39,837 nt of DNA from Candidatus Rokuibacteriota bacterium. Its GTDB lineage: Bacteria > Methylomirabilota > Methylomirabilia > Rokubacteriales > CSP1-6. The DNA lies in the NCBI GenBank assembly GCA_016179965.1, contig JACPCF010000018.1, positions 1 through 39,837 of the forward strand, read 5' to 3'. The position numbers were made by a program, and so were the translations under genes. Each line of letters opens with the position of its first letter. The stretch's first letter is position 1. Of this stretch, positions 308 to 5,863 are shown in pieces. Under the pieces are notes generated by a model. The model did not search any database. It worked only from the letters and a program-made list of their open reading frames with translations, and was not told the DNA's origin.

Positions 308-787
308 CTATCGCCGGGGCTGGGGGGTTGGCGTCCCCGGGCCGAACTTCGAGTATTTGGCGTCGATGGCCCGCCGGATCTCCGTGAGGGACGTCCCACG
401 CCGCTTCAGATCCATCACGTCACGCGTGATGTCCAGGCAGAGGCTTCAGGTGGCGGCGTGGCTGGTGTACGTGAGCGTTCCGTCCCGGTTCTCGCTCTTG
501 ATGTAGCACTGCCGGTTGGAGCGATGGCCGATGTTGCCACACCCGCAGTAGCACGGGATGTGCTCGAGGTCCTTCCCCCGCTCCGCGGCGAAGCCGTACA
601 GCCCCGCAACGTCCGGGCCGGCGGATTTCGCGAACAGTGGGAGTTCTCCCCGGGGTAGCGTCTGGACCTGATCCCCGTACTGATCGGTCGTCAGGGGACC
701 CGCGGCGGAGTCGCGGGTCAACGAGGCGCCCCCGGCGAGGACTCCCAGGGCGCCTACGAGCATCTCGCGGCGAGTGATGGCTCTCAT
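308..787 (-). CDS. PCYCGC-motif exported protein, candidate selenoprotein with in-frame TGA as Sec114
   Basis: The ORF track stops this gene at TGA 446-448 (113 aa), but the same frame continues without a stop to TAG 308-310, giving 159 residues if TGA is read as selenocysteine. The protein opens with a twin-arginine-like signal (TRREMLVGALGVLAGG). PCYCGCG follows at residues 78-84 and a further Cys at 94. After the TGA comes SLCLDITRDVMDLKRRG, then LTEIRRAIDAKY and a PTPTPQPR tail. Relatives of the PCYCGC family, as I recall them, read HGTxCGVCLEI at this point. The TGA therefore replaces exactly the first Cys of the CxxC, giving U114-S-L-C117, and the post-TGA sequence matches the family end. 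A 7-bp hairpin starts 14 bases after the TGA (separate entry). The gene is last in an operon, with an ATGA overlap with the DUF1285 gene. Function is unknown; a thiol/selenol redox or metal-handling role outside the cytoplasm is inferred. Alternatives are a recent nonsense mutation or a sequencing error. Confidence 0.8.
413..431 (-). promoter_or_regulatory. Putative bacterial SECIS hairpin downstream of the TGA
   Basis: On the coding strand, CATCACG and CGTGATG form a perfect 7-bp stem closed by the 5-base loop CGTGA. Twenty-one bases separate the TGA from the loop. This matches my recollection of bacterial SECIS rules: a hairpin immediately 3' of UGA, an apical loop about 16-37 bases away, and a G among the first two loop bases. 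The hairpin lies inside the coding frame (encoding roughly DITRDVM), as bacterial SECIS elements do. A stem could arise by chance in GC-rich DNA, but its position and perfection support recoding. Confidence 0.6.
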
Positions 788-1257
788 CGATGGTCCTCCT
801 CCTCACGGCTCAGGCGGTGCGCCATTCCACCCACCCGGAGGATCGCGGCGCCGGTCCCTTCGTCGTACTCGATCAGGCTTCCGAGCTGGTAGGCCGCGGC
901 CCGGGAGAAGCGCGCCTCGAACTGGCCGCCTTTGATTCGGCAATAGGGGATCCCCGCCGCGGTGAGACGCAGAGTGGTCGGGTCCAGGGTCGCCTGGGTT
1001 CCGTCGTTCAGGGTCACGCGGGGCGTTCCGCCCACGGCCTCAACCCGCACCACCACGAAGGGGGCGTCGGCGACCTCGACGGGAATCCGAACGGGGCCGG
1101 CCTGGATGAAGTAGCCCGTCTCGTCCCGGCGCAGGTTCCGCATGAGATTGGCGAGAATCCCGGGGTGGGTGATCTCCTCTCCCTCGTGAAACCATTCCCC
1201 CTCTGGATTCACCGTGAGGCGGGGCAGCGTCCACTTCGACGGCTCGGCCGTGCTCAT
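784..1257 (-). CDS. DUF1285 family protein
   Basis: The 157-residue product matches the DUF1285 family. It has an N-terminal stretch WTLPRLTVNPEGEWFHEGEEITHPGI and a central block IPVEVADAPFVVVRV, which corresponds to the typical I.VEDAPFVA signature. The end of the protein holds a second small beta-rich part (GGQFEARFSRAAAYQLGSLIEYDE). It has no signal peptide or membrane segment, so it is probably cytoplasmic. The biochemical role of the family is unknown. Start and stop both overlap neighbours by four bases (ATGA with the MEMO1-family gene upstream and with the PCYCGC gene downstream), so the three are translationally coupled. Confidence 0.85.
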   Translation of the reverse strand: MSTAEPSKWTLPRLTVNPEGEWFHEGEEITHPGILANLMRNLRRDETGYFIQAGPVRIPVEVADAPFVVVRVEAVGGTPRVTLNDGTQATLDPTTLRLTAAGIPYCRIKGGQFEARFSRAAAYQLGSLIEYDEGTGAAILRVGGMAHRLSREEEDHR

Positions 1258-2528
1258 GGTCTCTGGCTCAGGTCACGTGTCGCGATCACTGGGCCCTCCG
1301 AGTAAAAGACCAGGCTGGCGAACGTGACGACCCCCTGGGGATCAGGCCACTGGGCGTATCGGAGCAGCCGACCTTCCCCCGCGGGGAGGCACCGCAGCAG
1401 CGTGTAGATGGGCGAGAGGCCGCAGATCCGCCGGCTGTCGCCGTCCTTCGCCACCGATTCGTAGAACGCGGGGGGATTCACCGCCGCGACGGCCTCGAGC
1501 ATGCTGCGATCTTCGCGTTCCAGGTGGGCCAGCGACGCCCGACCCACAGGCTCGGGGTCGCCGAAGCGGGGCCCGACATGGGCCAGGTCCACCCCCGCGA
1601 TCAGGCACACCTTGCGCGGTGACGCGGCGATGGTTTCCCCCAGAGCGTCGAAGAAGCGCGGGATGCGAGGGTCGGCCTCCGGCGCCGTGCCGGCGATCAG
1701 GTTCTCGTGGAGGAAGCTCGCCAGAATGGGGACCACGGCGAACTCGCGCCGGGCCCCGAACACGCCGCGGAGGAACACGGCCTGGAACTCGATGGAGTGC
1801 TCGCTCCGGTGGGCGACTTCGCTGGCCAGGAGGTCGTCTCCGTAGCGGCGCCGGAGGGCCGCAGCGAAATCGCGGTCCACCGCCGCCGGACCGAGGGGCG
1901 TCTCGTAATCTTTCAGGGTCAGCGCAAAGGGGTCGGGCATGCCCGCGTGGCAGGTGCCGAGGATCACGAACAGGTCGGCGTCGCTTCGCTCGGCCAGCTC
2001 GCGGTAGGCCCAGGCGTAGACGGGTCCCCCCCGGTGGAAATCAATGTGGGGAGCCATGATCGCGTTGACGGAGCCGGCGCGTGGGGTCTCGGGCGCCGGG
2101 CCCGGCCCCTCGGGATGGGCGAAGAAGCCTGCGACCTGAGCGCTGAGCGCCTCCGGCTCCGCCGCGTACGCGCTCCCCGCTTGGACTGCCGGCCGCGTGG
2201 GGCTCGCCCTGAACCGCGTCTCGATGGTCGCGCGCCGCCGGCTGAAGGTTTCGCTGTCGAGGAAGCCGTGCTCGTCCAGCGTCCTCGAGATCTCCTCGAG
2301 CCGCTCCTTGAAGAGGAGCCGGCCGTGACGGCGCATGAAGATCTCCTGGATCTCCAGGAGGGAGTGCTCGCCGTCGAAGAGCGAGACGATGTCCACCAGC
2401 GGCGGCGGAAGGACCAGGACCGCGTCGGTGAAGCCCGCCGGGTCCCGGAGGGCGATGCCCTTCTTGCCTCCCGCCTCTACGGGGAAGGCCTCCACCGGCC
2501 TCAGCTTCGGTCGGTCGGTCAGCTCCAC
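1254..2528 (-). CDS. AmmeMemoRadiSam system protein B / MEMO1-family protein with PqqD-like N-terminal domain
   Basis: The C-terminal ~280 residues are a MEMO1/LigB-like domain: MAPHIDFHRGGPVYAWAY, VILGTCHAGMPDPFAL, HSIEFQAVFL, GVDLAHVGPRFGD and RRICGLSPIYTLL. The HID, CH, LAH and CG positions correspond to the conserved His/Cys pocket of MEMO1. Residues ~1-110 (KLRPVEAF… DGEHSLLEIQEIF) look like a PqqD-like winged-helix domain. I chose the GTG at 2528 (424 aa). The track's ATG at 2609 would overlap the M20 peptidase by 74 bases, whereas the GTG lies 7 bases after that gene's stop with AAGGG upstream. No AMMECR1 or radical-SAM partner is present in the window. Enzymatic activity in bacteria is not established; copper or redox roles are reported for human MEMO1. 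Confidence 0.88.
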   Translation of the reverse strand: MELTDRPKLRPVEAFPVEAGGKKGIALRDPAGFTDAVLVLPPPLVDIVSLFDGEHSLLEIQEIFMRRHGRLLFKERLEEISRTLDEHGFLDSETFSRRRATIETRFRASPTRPAVQAGSAYAAEPEALSAQVAGFFAHPEGPGPAPETPRAGSVNAIMAPHIDFHRGGPVYAWAYRELAERSDADLFVILGTCHAGMPDPFALTLKDYETPLGPAAVDRDFAAALRRRYGDDLLASEVAHRSEHSIEFQAVFLRGVFGARREFAVVPILASFLHENLIAGTAPEADPRIPRFFDALGETIAASPRKVCLIAGVDLAHVGPRFGDPEPVGRASLAHLEREDRSMLEAVAAVNPPAFYESVAKDGDSRRICGLSPIYTLLRCLPAGEGRLLRYAQWPDPQGVVTFASLVFYSEGPVIATRDLSQRP

Positions 2529-2535
2529 GTCGCCG

Positions 2536-3750
2536 CTACCCTTCAAGAAACTTCCAGGCTGCCACAGCGTAAATCCTCGCCGCGTCAGCCAGTTCTCTGA
2601 TCTCCACATACTCGTCCACCTGGTGGGGGATGAGCCGGTTCCCCGGGCCGCAGGTGACGATGGGGATGCCGAGCTCTGTGAGGAGGATGGTGCCGTCCGT
2701 CGAGCCGGGGACGCCCCCGTAGCGCGGGGCTCTTCCCGTCACCTGTTTCACCGCGAAGGCGAGTGCCCGGACCAGCGGCTCCTCCCGGGCGACTTTGGTC
2801 GGCAGCCGGAGCGCCCCGAGCGGCTCCCACTCCACCTTGATTCCCGGGTGCGCCGCCTCCACCCGCCGGCAGAGCCGCTCGATCTCCTGGTGGACCCCGT
2901 CGCCGTCGATGCCCGGTGTGAGCCTGACGTCCAGGATCAGCTCGCTCCCCGCCGGGATCACGTTTGCCTGAGGGACGCCCCGGATCGGCGCCTGGAGCAC
3001 CGTGGGAGTCACCGTGGGGGGGTGGAGATACCGGCTCCGCTTGGCGCTCCGCCTGAGCCGCCGCTGAAGCGCGGGCACTTCTCTCAGGAGGGTGCCGATG
3101 GGCCAAATCGGATTCACGCCCGCCTCGGGCATGGCCCCGTGAGCCATCCTGCCGCGGATGCGCACCCGCGCCCAGACGACGCCCCGTTGTTCTAGACAGA
3201 GCTCGTTCTGCTCTGGCTCGCAGATGATCGCCGCGCCGACCTGTCGGCCGATCGGGGTCCCGCAGAACTGACGGACGCCCAGCATGGCGCCTTCCTCATC
3301 CGCGAGGGCTCCCACCATCAACCGCCCCGGAGGCGTCAGGCCGGCGCGCTTGAAGGCGGCGGCGGCGAGCATCGCCGCGGCGAGGCCGCCCTTCATGTCG
3401 GCGGCGCCGCGCCCGTAGATCCGGCCGTCGGCCAGGTCGGCGGCGAACGGGGGATGGCTCCACTCCGCGGGATCGCCCTCCGTGACGACGTCGGTGTGCC
3501 CTTCCAGCAGGAGCGTGGGGCCGGCCTCACCGAGCCACGCGATGACGTTGGGCCGGGCCGGCGCCGCGCGCTGGACCTCGACCCGGAACCCCTCCCGCCT
3601 GAACCAGGCTTCGATGAAGGACGCGACGCGGGACTCGTTGGCGGCGGGGTCGTCGGGGCGATAGACGCTGGGGATGCGGACGAGATCGCGCGTCAGGGCG
3701 ACGAGCTCCTCGTCTCGGATCTGCTCCAGGACCTTCTGGATCGCCTTCAC
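2536..3750 (-). CDS. M20 family metallopeptidase (ArgE/DapE/CPG2-like)
   Basis: This is a 404-residue zinc-dependent deacylase or peptidase. The metal-ligand motifs are in order: EGHTDVV (His85, Asp87), GRGAADMKGG (Asp118), ADEEG (catalytic Glu152, Glu153), ICEPE (~178) and a late LIPHQVDEYV (His). Between ~190 and 300 is the dimerisation domain with MAHGAMPEAGVNP. Length and motif spacing fit ArgE/DapE/ACY1/CPG2 enzymes, which remove acyl or terminal groups from amino acids or small peptides. The exact substrate cannot be read from sequence. It sits two genes from a sodium:solute symporter, so it could process an imported amide or peptide. A strong stem-loop lies just upstream of its start. 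Confidence 0.92.
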   Translation of the reverse strand: MKAIQKVLEQIRDEELVALTRDLVRIPSVYRPDDPAANESRVASFIEAWFRREGFRVEVQRAAPARPNVIAWLGEAGPTLLLEGHTDVVTEGDPAEWSHPPFAADLADGRIYGRGAADMKGGLAAAMLAAAAFKRAGLTPPGRLMVGALADEEGAMLGVRQFCGTPIGRQVGAAIICEPEQNELCLEQRGVVWARVRIRGRMAHGAMPEAGVNPIWPIGTLLREVPALQRRLRRSAKRSRYLHPPTVTPTVLQAPIRGVPQANVIPAGSELILDVRLTPGIDGDGVHQEIERLCRRVEAAHPGIKVEWEPLGALRLPTKVAREEPLVRALAFAVKQVTGRAPRYGGVPGSTDGTILLTELGIPIVTCGPGNRLIPHQVDEYVEIRELADAARIYAVAAWKFLEG

Positions 3751-3762
3751 CGGCGGGCGGGC

Positions 3763-3781
3763 CCCCAGCCGCAGGCTGGGG
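3763..3781 (-). terminator. GC-rich stem-loop between small ORF and M20 peptidase
   Basis: CCCCAGCC and GGCTGGGG form a perfect 8-bp stem with a 3-base loop in the 51-base gap between two co-directional genes. There is no run of T after it on either strand. It may be an RNA stability or attenuation structure rather than a true intrinsic terminator. Confidence 0.35.
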
Positions 3782-3801
3782 AGCGGACGCGGCGCGGGCG
3801 G

Positions 3802-4104
3802 CTACTCGTGAGGGAAGGACAGGATCACCGCGTCGAGGCGGATCACCCGGTGCTCCTCCCCGCTCAGGTAGAAGTAGTGCCCCTCCACGTCCTCGGCGCT
3901 CTCCTCGAAGGCGACCACGGCCTCCAGCGGCGGCATCTCGCGGAAGGCGTTGGCGCCTTCGTCGAACCCATCGCCGCGGCCCACAACTCGGCCGTAGCGG
4001 ATCGGCGAGCCCTTGGGGCAGTGCACCCGGATGTCGGCGGGGGGCTCGCCTAGGAGCTTCACCAGGAGATTGATGCCGTAGACCTGCACGGGAATCTCGC
4101 TCAT
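3802..4104 (-). CDS. Unrecognised 100-aa protein
   Basis: I do not recognise the family. The product is acidic and probably soluble: MSEIPVQVYGINLLVKLLGEP, then VHCPKGSPIRYGRVVGRGDGFDEG, and an end rich in beta-like hydrophobics (RVIRLDAVILSFPHE). It has one Cys and no membrane segment. It is credible as a gene because it fills the space between two operon members, has the strong ribosome-binding site GAGAGGAG before its ATG, and is preceded by an extended -10-like motif overlapping the end of the symporter gene. The position between a symporter and a peptidase suggests an accessory role, but that is a guess. Confidence 0.7.
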   Translation of the reverse strand: MSEIPVQVYGINLLVKLLGEPPADIRVHCPKGSPIRYGRVVGRGDGFDEGANAFREMPPLEAVVAFEESAEDVEGHYFYLSGEEHRVIRLDAVILSFPHE

Positions 4105-4130
4105 GGACTCCTCTCGTGGTCGGGCGGTGG

Positions 4131-4143
4131 CCTTATTCTAGCA
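4131..4143 (-). promoter_or_regulatory. Extended -10-like motif TGCTAGAATAAGG
   Basis: The minus strand reads TGCTAGAATAAGG, ending about 27 bases before the ATG of the 100-aa gene and overlapping the last codons of the symporter gene. TG-n-TAGAAT fits an extended -10 element. The same word recurs upstream of other first genes in the window (see findings). No clear -35 was found. Confidence 0.4.
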
Positions 4144-5863
4144 CGACCTTCCGCGACCCGCCCAGGATCCACGCCGTGAGGACGACGGCCGCCACCAGAA
4201 AGACGCTCCCCCGCCCCGGAGACCCCAGCACCAGCGAGCCGATTCCGAAGAGCCCGAGGTAGACCACGACGCAGCCCATGGCCCAGTGGAGCAGGTCCCT
4301 GATCCCCGGCCCCTCCGCCGCGGCCGCGGGGCCCGCGACACGTCGCCAGCCGGGGCCGCCCGGCCTCGCCTTGGCGTGGAAGCGCTGGAGATGGTCGAGC
4401 GGCTCCGCGGGCGTCAGGTACGTCACGGCCACCCACACCACCGTCGTCCCCGCCACGGTCAGTAGCATGACCCAGGCGAACTCGCGGGCGTCATCCACGT
4501 TCAGGCCCGCGCCGAACTGGAGTCCGAGGGAGAGCACGAACGCCCCCGCCATCGCCGCGACCTCGGACCACGCGTTGATCCGCCACCAGTACCACCGGAG
4601 CAGATACACGAGCCCGGTCCCGGCGCCGATCGCCAGCAGGAACTTCCACGCGCCTTCCACCGATGTGAGGTAGTACGTGATGACGCCGGCGACGACCATC
4701 ATGAGGACGGTGGCGAGGCGGCCCGCCCGGGCATAGTGCGCGGGGCCGGCGTCCGGGCGCCAGAAGCGGCGGTAGACGTCGTTGACGAGGTAGGACGCGC
4801 CCCAGTTGAGGTGGGTGGAGACCGTGGACATGTAGGCGGCGAAGAAGGCCGCCAGGAGGAAGCCCCGCCAGTACGGGGGCAGGAGGTCCACCATCACGCG
4901 GACGTACCCCTCCTCGGGGTTGGCGAGCCCCGGATAGAGGAGCATGGAGACCAGCGCCACCAGAATCCAGGGCCACGGGCGGAGGGCGTAGTGGGCGAGG
5001 TTGAACCAGAGGGCGGCCAGCACGGCGTGGCGCTCGTCCCGGGTCGAGAGGATGCGCTGGGCGACATACCCGCCGCCGCCCGGCTCGGCCCCCGGGTACC
5101 AGGAGGCCCACCAGTTGACGGCGAGATAGACGAAGAAGGTGAGGGCCGGCATCCAGGCCGAGTGGAGATCGGGCAGCAGCGCCAGCGGGGCGCCGTCGGG
5201 GAACTTGGCGTTGAGGGCGGCCAGCAGGCCCGAGAGGCCGCCCACGTGGTTCACGGCGAAGACGGCCAGGGCAATCGAACCGGCCATGGCCAGGACGAAC
5301 TGGAAGAGATCGGTGACCAGGACTCCCCACAGCCCCGAGAGGGTGGAGTAGAGCGCGGTGATGACGAACAGGGCGACCGTGGCCTCCCACTTGCGGATCC
5401 CGAGGGTGAGCCCCAGGATCGTGGCCATCGCGTGGGTGACCCAGCCGATGATGATGCAGTTGATCGGGATGGCCAGGTAGGCGGCGCGGAAGGCGCGCAG
5501 GAAGGCGGCCGGCCGGCCCGCGTAGCGGAGCTCGGTGAACTCCGCGTCGGTCATCACCTCGGCCCGCCGCCAGAGCCGGGCGTAGAAGAAGACCGTGAGC
5601 ATGCCGCTCATGACCATGGACCACCAGAGCCAGTTGCCGGCGATCCCGTGCTTGACCGTCAGCCCGGTGACGGCCAGCGGCGTGTCGGCGGCGAACGTGG
5701 TCGCCACCATGGAGGTTCCGGCCAGCCACCACGGGACCCGCCGGCCCGACAGGAAGTACTCCTCCGCGCTCGTCCCCGCCCGCCGGGTGAAGGCCAGCCC
5801 GACGGCGAGCGAGAGAGCGAAGTAGAGGACGATGATGAGCCAGTCGACCCCGGTCAGGATCAC
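4133..5863 (-). CDS. Sodium:solute symporter (SSS family)
   Basis: This 576-residue integral membrane protein has about 13-15 hydrophobic segments. It opens with WLIIVLYFALSLAVGLAFTRRAG and then EEYFLSGRRVPWWLAGTSMVATTFAADTP, the classic SSS N-terminus (family pattern FxxGRxxPWWxxGxSMxAT), whose Ser/Thr-rich turn helps bind sodium. By family knowledge it imports a solute (sugar, amino acid, carboxylate or similar) with Na+. The substrate cannot be named. The start is GTG at 5861-5863, overlapping the rmuC stop by four bases (GTGA). It is followed after 28 bases by the unknown 100-aa gene and then an M20 peptidase, suggesting uptake followed by hydrolysis. Confidence 0.92.
   Translation of the reverse strand: MILTGVDWLIIVLYFALSLAVGLAFTRRAGTSAEEYFLSGRRVPWWLAGTSMVATTFAADTPLAVTGLTVKHGIAGNWLWWSMVMSGMLTVFFYARLWRRAEVMTDAEFTELRYAGRPAAFLRAFRAAYLAIPINCIIIGWVTHAMATILGLTLGIRKWEATVALFVITALYSTLSGLWGVLVTDLFQFVLAMAGSIALAVFAVNHVGGLSGLLAALNAKFPDGAPLALLPDLHSAWMPALTFFVYLAVNWWASWYPGAEPGGGGYVAQRILSTRDERHAVLAALWFNLAHYALRPWPWILVALVSMLLYPGLANPEEGYVRVMVDLLPPYWRGFLLAAFFAAYMSTVSTHLNWGASYLVNDVYRRFWRPDAGPAHYARAGRLATVLMMVVAGVITYYLTSVEGAWKFLLAIGAGTGLVYLLRWYWWRINAWSEVAAMAGAFVLSLGLQFGAGLNVDDAREFAWVMLLTVAGTTVVWVAVTYLTPAEPLDHLQRFHAKARPGGPGWRRVAGPAAAAEGPGIRDLLHWAMGCVVVYLGLFGIGSLVLGSPGRGSVFLVAAVVLTAWILGGSRKVVLE

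Follow-up and report, generated by a model that had tools for sequence, protein, structure and literature searches.

An in-frame UGA codon, probably read as selenocysteine, in a PCYCGC-family protein from a Rokubacteriales bacterium

The window analyzed here is the whole stretch of 39,837 nucleotides of contig JACPCF010000018.1 from a Candidatus Rokuibacteriota bacterium (assembly GCA_016179965.1). The features of interest all lie on its reverse strand and are provided in Table 1. Read in the direction of transcription, a sodium:solute symporter gene is followed by those for a small protein, an M20 peptidase, a Memo-like protein, and a PF11161/DUF1285-like protein, and lastly by the gene that is the subject of this report. 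The ATG of this last gene overlaps the TGA stop of the preceding one in an ATGA junction. The small protein, M20 peptidase, Memo, and PF11161/DUF1285-like genes are likewise positioned upstream of the selenoprotein gene in 13 other long loci, as are the Memo and PF11161/DUF1285-like genes in four shorter ones. We know of no pathway for an operon of this composition (window positions 784-5863).

Table 1. Coordinates of the features discussed in the text (window numbering).
Feature	Position	Strand	Remarks
PCYCGC-family (PF13798) gene, probable selenoprotein	308..787	-	159 aa with U114; ATG 785-787, TAG 308-310
SECIS hairpin CATCACG-CGTGA-CGTGATG	413..431	-	arms 425-431 and 413-419, loop 420-424
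C117, resolving Cys in U-x-x-C	437..439	-	invariant
TGA codon 114, probably read as selenocysteine	446..448	-	position 1 of U-x-x-C
C94, between the PCYCGC and U-x-x-C motifs	506..508	-	invariant
PCYCGC motif, P78-C83	539..556	-	candidate metal-binding CxCxC cluster; full conservation of C79 and C81, near-full of C83
Upstream gene, PF11161 / weak DUF1285_N match	784..1257	-	
Memo-family protein (AmmeMemoRadiSam system protein B)	1254..2609	-	N-terminal extension, start unsure; 109 bits (cut-off 26), synteny
M20 peptidase, same operon	2536..3750	-	
Small conserved operon protein	3802..4104	-	73-85% identity in relatives
Sodium:solute symporter	4133..5863	-	heads the syntenic block in some relatives, an RmuC-like gene in others

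The reading frame of the PCYCGC gene encounters a TGA after 113 codons and then continues for 45 further codons of family sequence before the TAG is reached. The PF13798 profile matches the read-through product with 107 bits over residues 40-157, against a curated cut-off of 25 bits, and thus the family profile spans the TGA. This in-frame continuation had been claimed in a first-pass annotation of the DNA, and both the reading of the frame and the profile match confirm it. Among the read-through candidates in the window, the PCYCGC gene is the only one in which both sides of the stop are coding and family-homologous; four others that emerged from a composition filter resemble antisense frames.

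An alignment of the family reveals that C79, C81, C83, H88, C94, H110, U/C114, and C117 are invariant or nearly so. By inspection, the N-terminus, TRREMLVGALG, resembles a signal for twin-arginine export. In the predicted structure (pLDDT 62), a helix begins at the UxxC motif, an arrangement also seen in thioredoxin-like active sites. A sequence search of solved structures returned nothing, and a Foldseek search with the predicted fold returned no significant match. Judged from the residues themselves, the conserved set of cysteines, histidines, and selenocysteine might coordinate Cu(I) and form a selenenylsulfide.

Matches to PF13798 were found in 70 of the 95 genomes of the host phylum, and all of the matches listed hold an in-frame TGA. 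In the 32 Sec copies that belong to the same branch of the family as the window protein (the window branch), read base by base, the TGA occupies the identical column and is always part of a U-x-x-C motif, which in the translated host-phylum copies is followed by x-[DN]-[IV]-T-R-[DE]-V. When the 159-residue product was compared with PF13798 proteins, cysteine was observed at this column in relatives, as the first-pass annotation had stated, namely on plasmids of Exiguobacterium, Priestia, Paenibacillus, and Geobacillus and in the Chloroflexota. One diverged second copy on a Priestia plasmid has a serine.

The machinery for selenocysteine insertion was searched for in the host genome, which is 92% complete, and was found: SelA (517 bits), SelB directly after it (read in part only), a tRNA-Sec with a TCA anticodon upstream of selA, and selD (contig C96, 42073-43011). 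The selD gene itself holds an in-frame TGA, and the host SelD is probably a selenoprotein in its own right; such forms of SelD are known from other bacteria. Positioned between the tRNA-Sec and selA (contig C34; locus L002, 1-480) is a gene whose product appears to be exported and contains the motif Y-S-C-E-C-P. Throughout the host phylum, 84 of the 95 genomes have a SelA match. No such match was obtained for eight of the 70 genomes that carry PF13798 proteins; seven of these are incomplete, and the remaining one, G087, is given as 100% complete. This genome contains two Sec-form PCYCGC genes and yet no SelA match, which probably reflects an assembly gap. The contigs are of draft quality. In the Chloroflexota, the presence of SelA was rejected as a discriminator between Sec and Cys forms because nearly all of the 37 carrier genomes have it. 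The only carriers there without a clear SelA are G095 (a weak partial match) and G124 (none), both of which carry Cys forms.

Downstream of the TGA lies a hairpin that spans positions +18 to +36, where +1 is the T of the codon. It consists of a stem of 7 bp and a loop of 5 nt with a G at the second place, is separated from the codon by 21 nt as measured to the loop, and has an energy of -9.3 kcal/mol. These values fall within all four constraints of the published bSECIS model, which are a loop of 3-9 nt with a G within its first two places, a stem of 4-16 bp, a UGA-to-loop distance of 16-37 nt, and an MFE of at most -7.5 (PMC13188914). Across the 32 Sec copies, DNA-level variation is almost absent from codons +5 to +11. 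Indeed, Arg +8 is encoded by CGT in 27 of the 32, whereas CGT accounts for 11-14% of the Arg codons in neighboring ORFs, and Val +10 is GTG in every copy. For the comparison of Sec with Cys forms, these 32 copies (which include that of Thermomicrobium roseum) were combined with 14 from a Chloroflexota sample. All six inner pairs and the loop G are retained in 44 of the resulting 46 Sec copies as compared to 0 of 21 Cys copies, and compensatory two-sided changes preserve the pairing at 19:35, 22:32, and 24:30. The corresponding Fisher value of 2e-15 is not a true probability because the sequences share kinship, but the contrast clearly stands despite this. Relative to synonymous recoding, the hairpin energy is only moderately low (median z of -1.8), and the case therefore rests on the conservation of the pairs, the freezing of the codons, and the Sec/Cys contrast.

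The protein sequence appears to bear the imprint of this hairpin. All 46 Sec copies have an arginine as residue +8, as compared to one of 21 Cys copies, 11 of which have a glutamine instead. From this distribution, it seems to be the SECIS, and not the protein, that imposes the arginine of the ITRDVM helix. Note that one Cys form, from an Anaerolineae MAG (locus L011, 4911-5342), displays six of the seven hairpin pairs plus a G-U and has lost the loop G; SelA in its genome is a weak partial match only. This copy might represent a Sec gene that has turned to Cys.

On the basis of conservation, covariation, and the insertion machinery, UGA-114 is in all likelihood translated as selenocysteine to yield an exported selenoprotein of the PCYCGC family. 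The assignment made in the first-pass annotation, U114-S-L-C117, is thus very well supported by the machinery, the shared TGA column, the Cys-containing relatives, and the SECIS. It had been considered vulnerable to a lack of Sec machinery and to decay of the downstream part; the machinery is present, no frameshifts occur, and C117 is invariant. Mechanical gene calling does end at the TGA, a codon that commonly ends genes in the window, but an ordinary stop, with a genuine 113-residue product followed by decaying sequence or with the TGA as an assembly error, is ruled out for practical purposes by the conservation: the codon falls in one column across dozens of genomes from two phyla, the part beyond it is conserved, and the hairpin is found only where the TGA is found. 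Decoding of the UGA as some other residue, by a reassigned code or leaky read-through and without selenium, is likewise scarcely tenable. Selenium in the product is deduced from sequence; against such decoding, however, stand the tRNA-Sec, SelA, SelB, and SelD of the genome, the bacterial SECIS after the TGA, and the identity of the column in relatives, which is Cys and not Trp or Gly. Reassignment in particular was rejected since TGA is a normal stop for the other genes of the window.

The first-pass annotation erred in one respect, namely in regarding selenocysteine as undescribed in the PCYCGC family. The NCBIfam entry NF041379 is entitled "CYCXC family (seleno)protein" and corresponds to OS_HP4, which was reportedly first described by Zhang and Gladyshev in 2007. 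A 2026 catalogue of prokaryotic selenoproteins, which credits OS_HP4 to that work, lists it as "CYCXC family protein (hypothetical protein OS_HP4)" with PF13798 and a UxxC motif (PMC13188914). No published report was found of the particular Sec branch to which the window protein belongs.

Is the window gene, then, simply that of the known OS_HP4/CYCXC selenoprotein? The two share the Pfam family to which the catalogue assigns OS_HP4, the CxCxC cluster, the Sec column, the U-x-x-C motif (present at the aligned column of NF041379), and a hairpin at equal distance from the TGA. The window protein differs, however, in that more residues separate C94 from U114 and in its Pro/Thr tail, and its hairpin is distinct in sequence and register. 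It scores 58.1 bits against NF041379, below the cut-off of 90. Indeed, the host phylum contains two Sec groups, one OS_HP4-like (CYCxC ... HAxxUxxC) with scores of 119-134 and the other the window branch with scores of 56-67, and these separate on trees. Simple identity with OS_HP4 is accordingly improbable. Two Cys forms have scores close to those of the window branch (65 for an Exiguobacterium lipoprotein and 71 for an Anaerolineae protein). The Bacillota PCYCGC (lipo)proteins, which are Cys forms, share with the window protein its length, motif order, PTPTP tail, and similar NF041379 scores, with identities of 39-43% in the best plasmid matches. They differ in having Cys for Sec, no SECIS, a lipoprotein signal, and Gln, Ala, Leu, or other residues at +8 in place of the arginine. 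Given the sub-threshold score, the window protein apparently represents a second, unannotated Sec branch of PF13798 that lies nearer to the PCYCGC lipoproteins. Sec and Cys labels placed on the tree require no fewer than seven changes overall, of which well-supported branches force two; the figure of seven is soft because the branches are long and the columns few.

The copy from Thermomicrobium roseum belongs to the window branch and contains the TGA (TRD_RS14940, megaplasmid NC_011961.1). It is annotated as a 318-bp PCYCGC gene that ends at the Sec codon, beyond which the sequence of the family continues and the identical hairpin recurs as a SECIS (locus L083, 5923-6375; NC_011961.1 from 573004). 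TRD_RS14940 is very probably a missed selenoprotein.

With respect to function, the neighbors of the relatives are informative. Host-phylum Sec copies of the window branch are located near genes for SCO1/SenC (8 loci), TlpA-like proteins (10), and multicopper oxidases (6), with DsbD and CtaG also near some host-phylum Sec copies. The Chloroflexota copies, mostly Cys forms with two Sec forms, lie near a COX2-cytochrome c protein at 11 loci and often near a membrane 4Fe-4S protein. In Bacillota and Burkholderia, the Cys copies are found in copper islands, amid P-type ATPases, multicopper oxidases, four-helix copper proteins, or CueR. Binding of Cu(I) is documented for human Memo1 (PMC9477392), and for the bacterial Memo protein this is only an analogy. 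From the gene context, the exported selenol/thiol protein quite possibly serves copper sites.

The C-terminal half of the protein bears a weak likeness to CcmH (PF03918), a thiol reductant of cytochrome c maturation. Both display a C-x-x-C motif before a helix, followed by G-x-S-x-x-E-I and a helix that ends in R/K-Y-G/S. The window protein, by contrast, lacks the LRC..C context and has an additional CxCxC half, and kinship is tentative. An hhalign comparison gave a probability of 62% and an E value of 8e-5, above 150 column shuffles, and a Pfam search of the window protein yielded no match to PF03918. The likeness is a lead only because CcmH was picked after a non-significant Foldseek match.

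In a competing view, the protein acts outside of the cytoplasm as a selenol-disulfide oxidoreductase of a general kind or in defense against peroxide, independently of copper. U-x-x-C is the usual thiol-oxidoreductase motif, TlpA-like and DsbD neighbors as well as the resemblance to CcmH point in the same direction, and none of the window copy's own neighbors is a classical copper gene. Copper genes nevertheless recur beside relatives in several phyla, and a plain oxidoreductase has no need of the extra CxCxC cluster and histidine. Such a role is possible, albeit somewhat doubtful.

In the reading favored here, SelB carrying Sec-tRNA(Sec) very probably decodes UGA-114 as selenocysteine, directed by the SECIS hairpin beginning 18 nt from the U of the codon, and thereby generates a U-x-x-C redox motif where a helix begins. 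The copper-related part of the mechanism is more tentative. After export, the selenol/thiol pair would act at copper sites in concert with the CxCxC cluster and with the invariant His and Cys, and would either reduce the thiol ligands of these sites or carry Cu(I) to them. In the host, the selenoprotein may work with the Memo-family protein of the same operon. A broader proposal, speculative and rather unlikely to hold in full, is that the PCYCGC family functions in the maturation of copper sites, with each protein combining a Cu(I) cluster of the CxCxC type with a redox half akin to CcmH. This half would run on selenium in the host phylum and part of the Chloroflexota, Sec and Cys would have been exchanged repeatedly, and the SECIS would dictate Arg +8.

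As the example of TRD_RS14940 demonstrates, automatic annotation can cut genes of the window branch at the TGA, and the existing selenoprotein model, NF041379, is too strict for them. The paired Sec and Cys copies provide a clean natural experiment on the demands that a SECIS makes of a protein. Since the neighbors across phyla point to copper sites and thiol reduction, the function is testable in cultured relatives. If the broader proposal is correct, PF13798 would contain a second selenoprotein subfamily, and a selenoprotein would serve copper enzymes or Memo.
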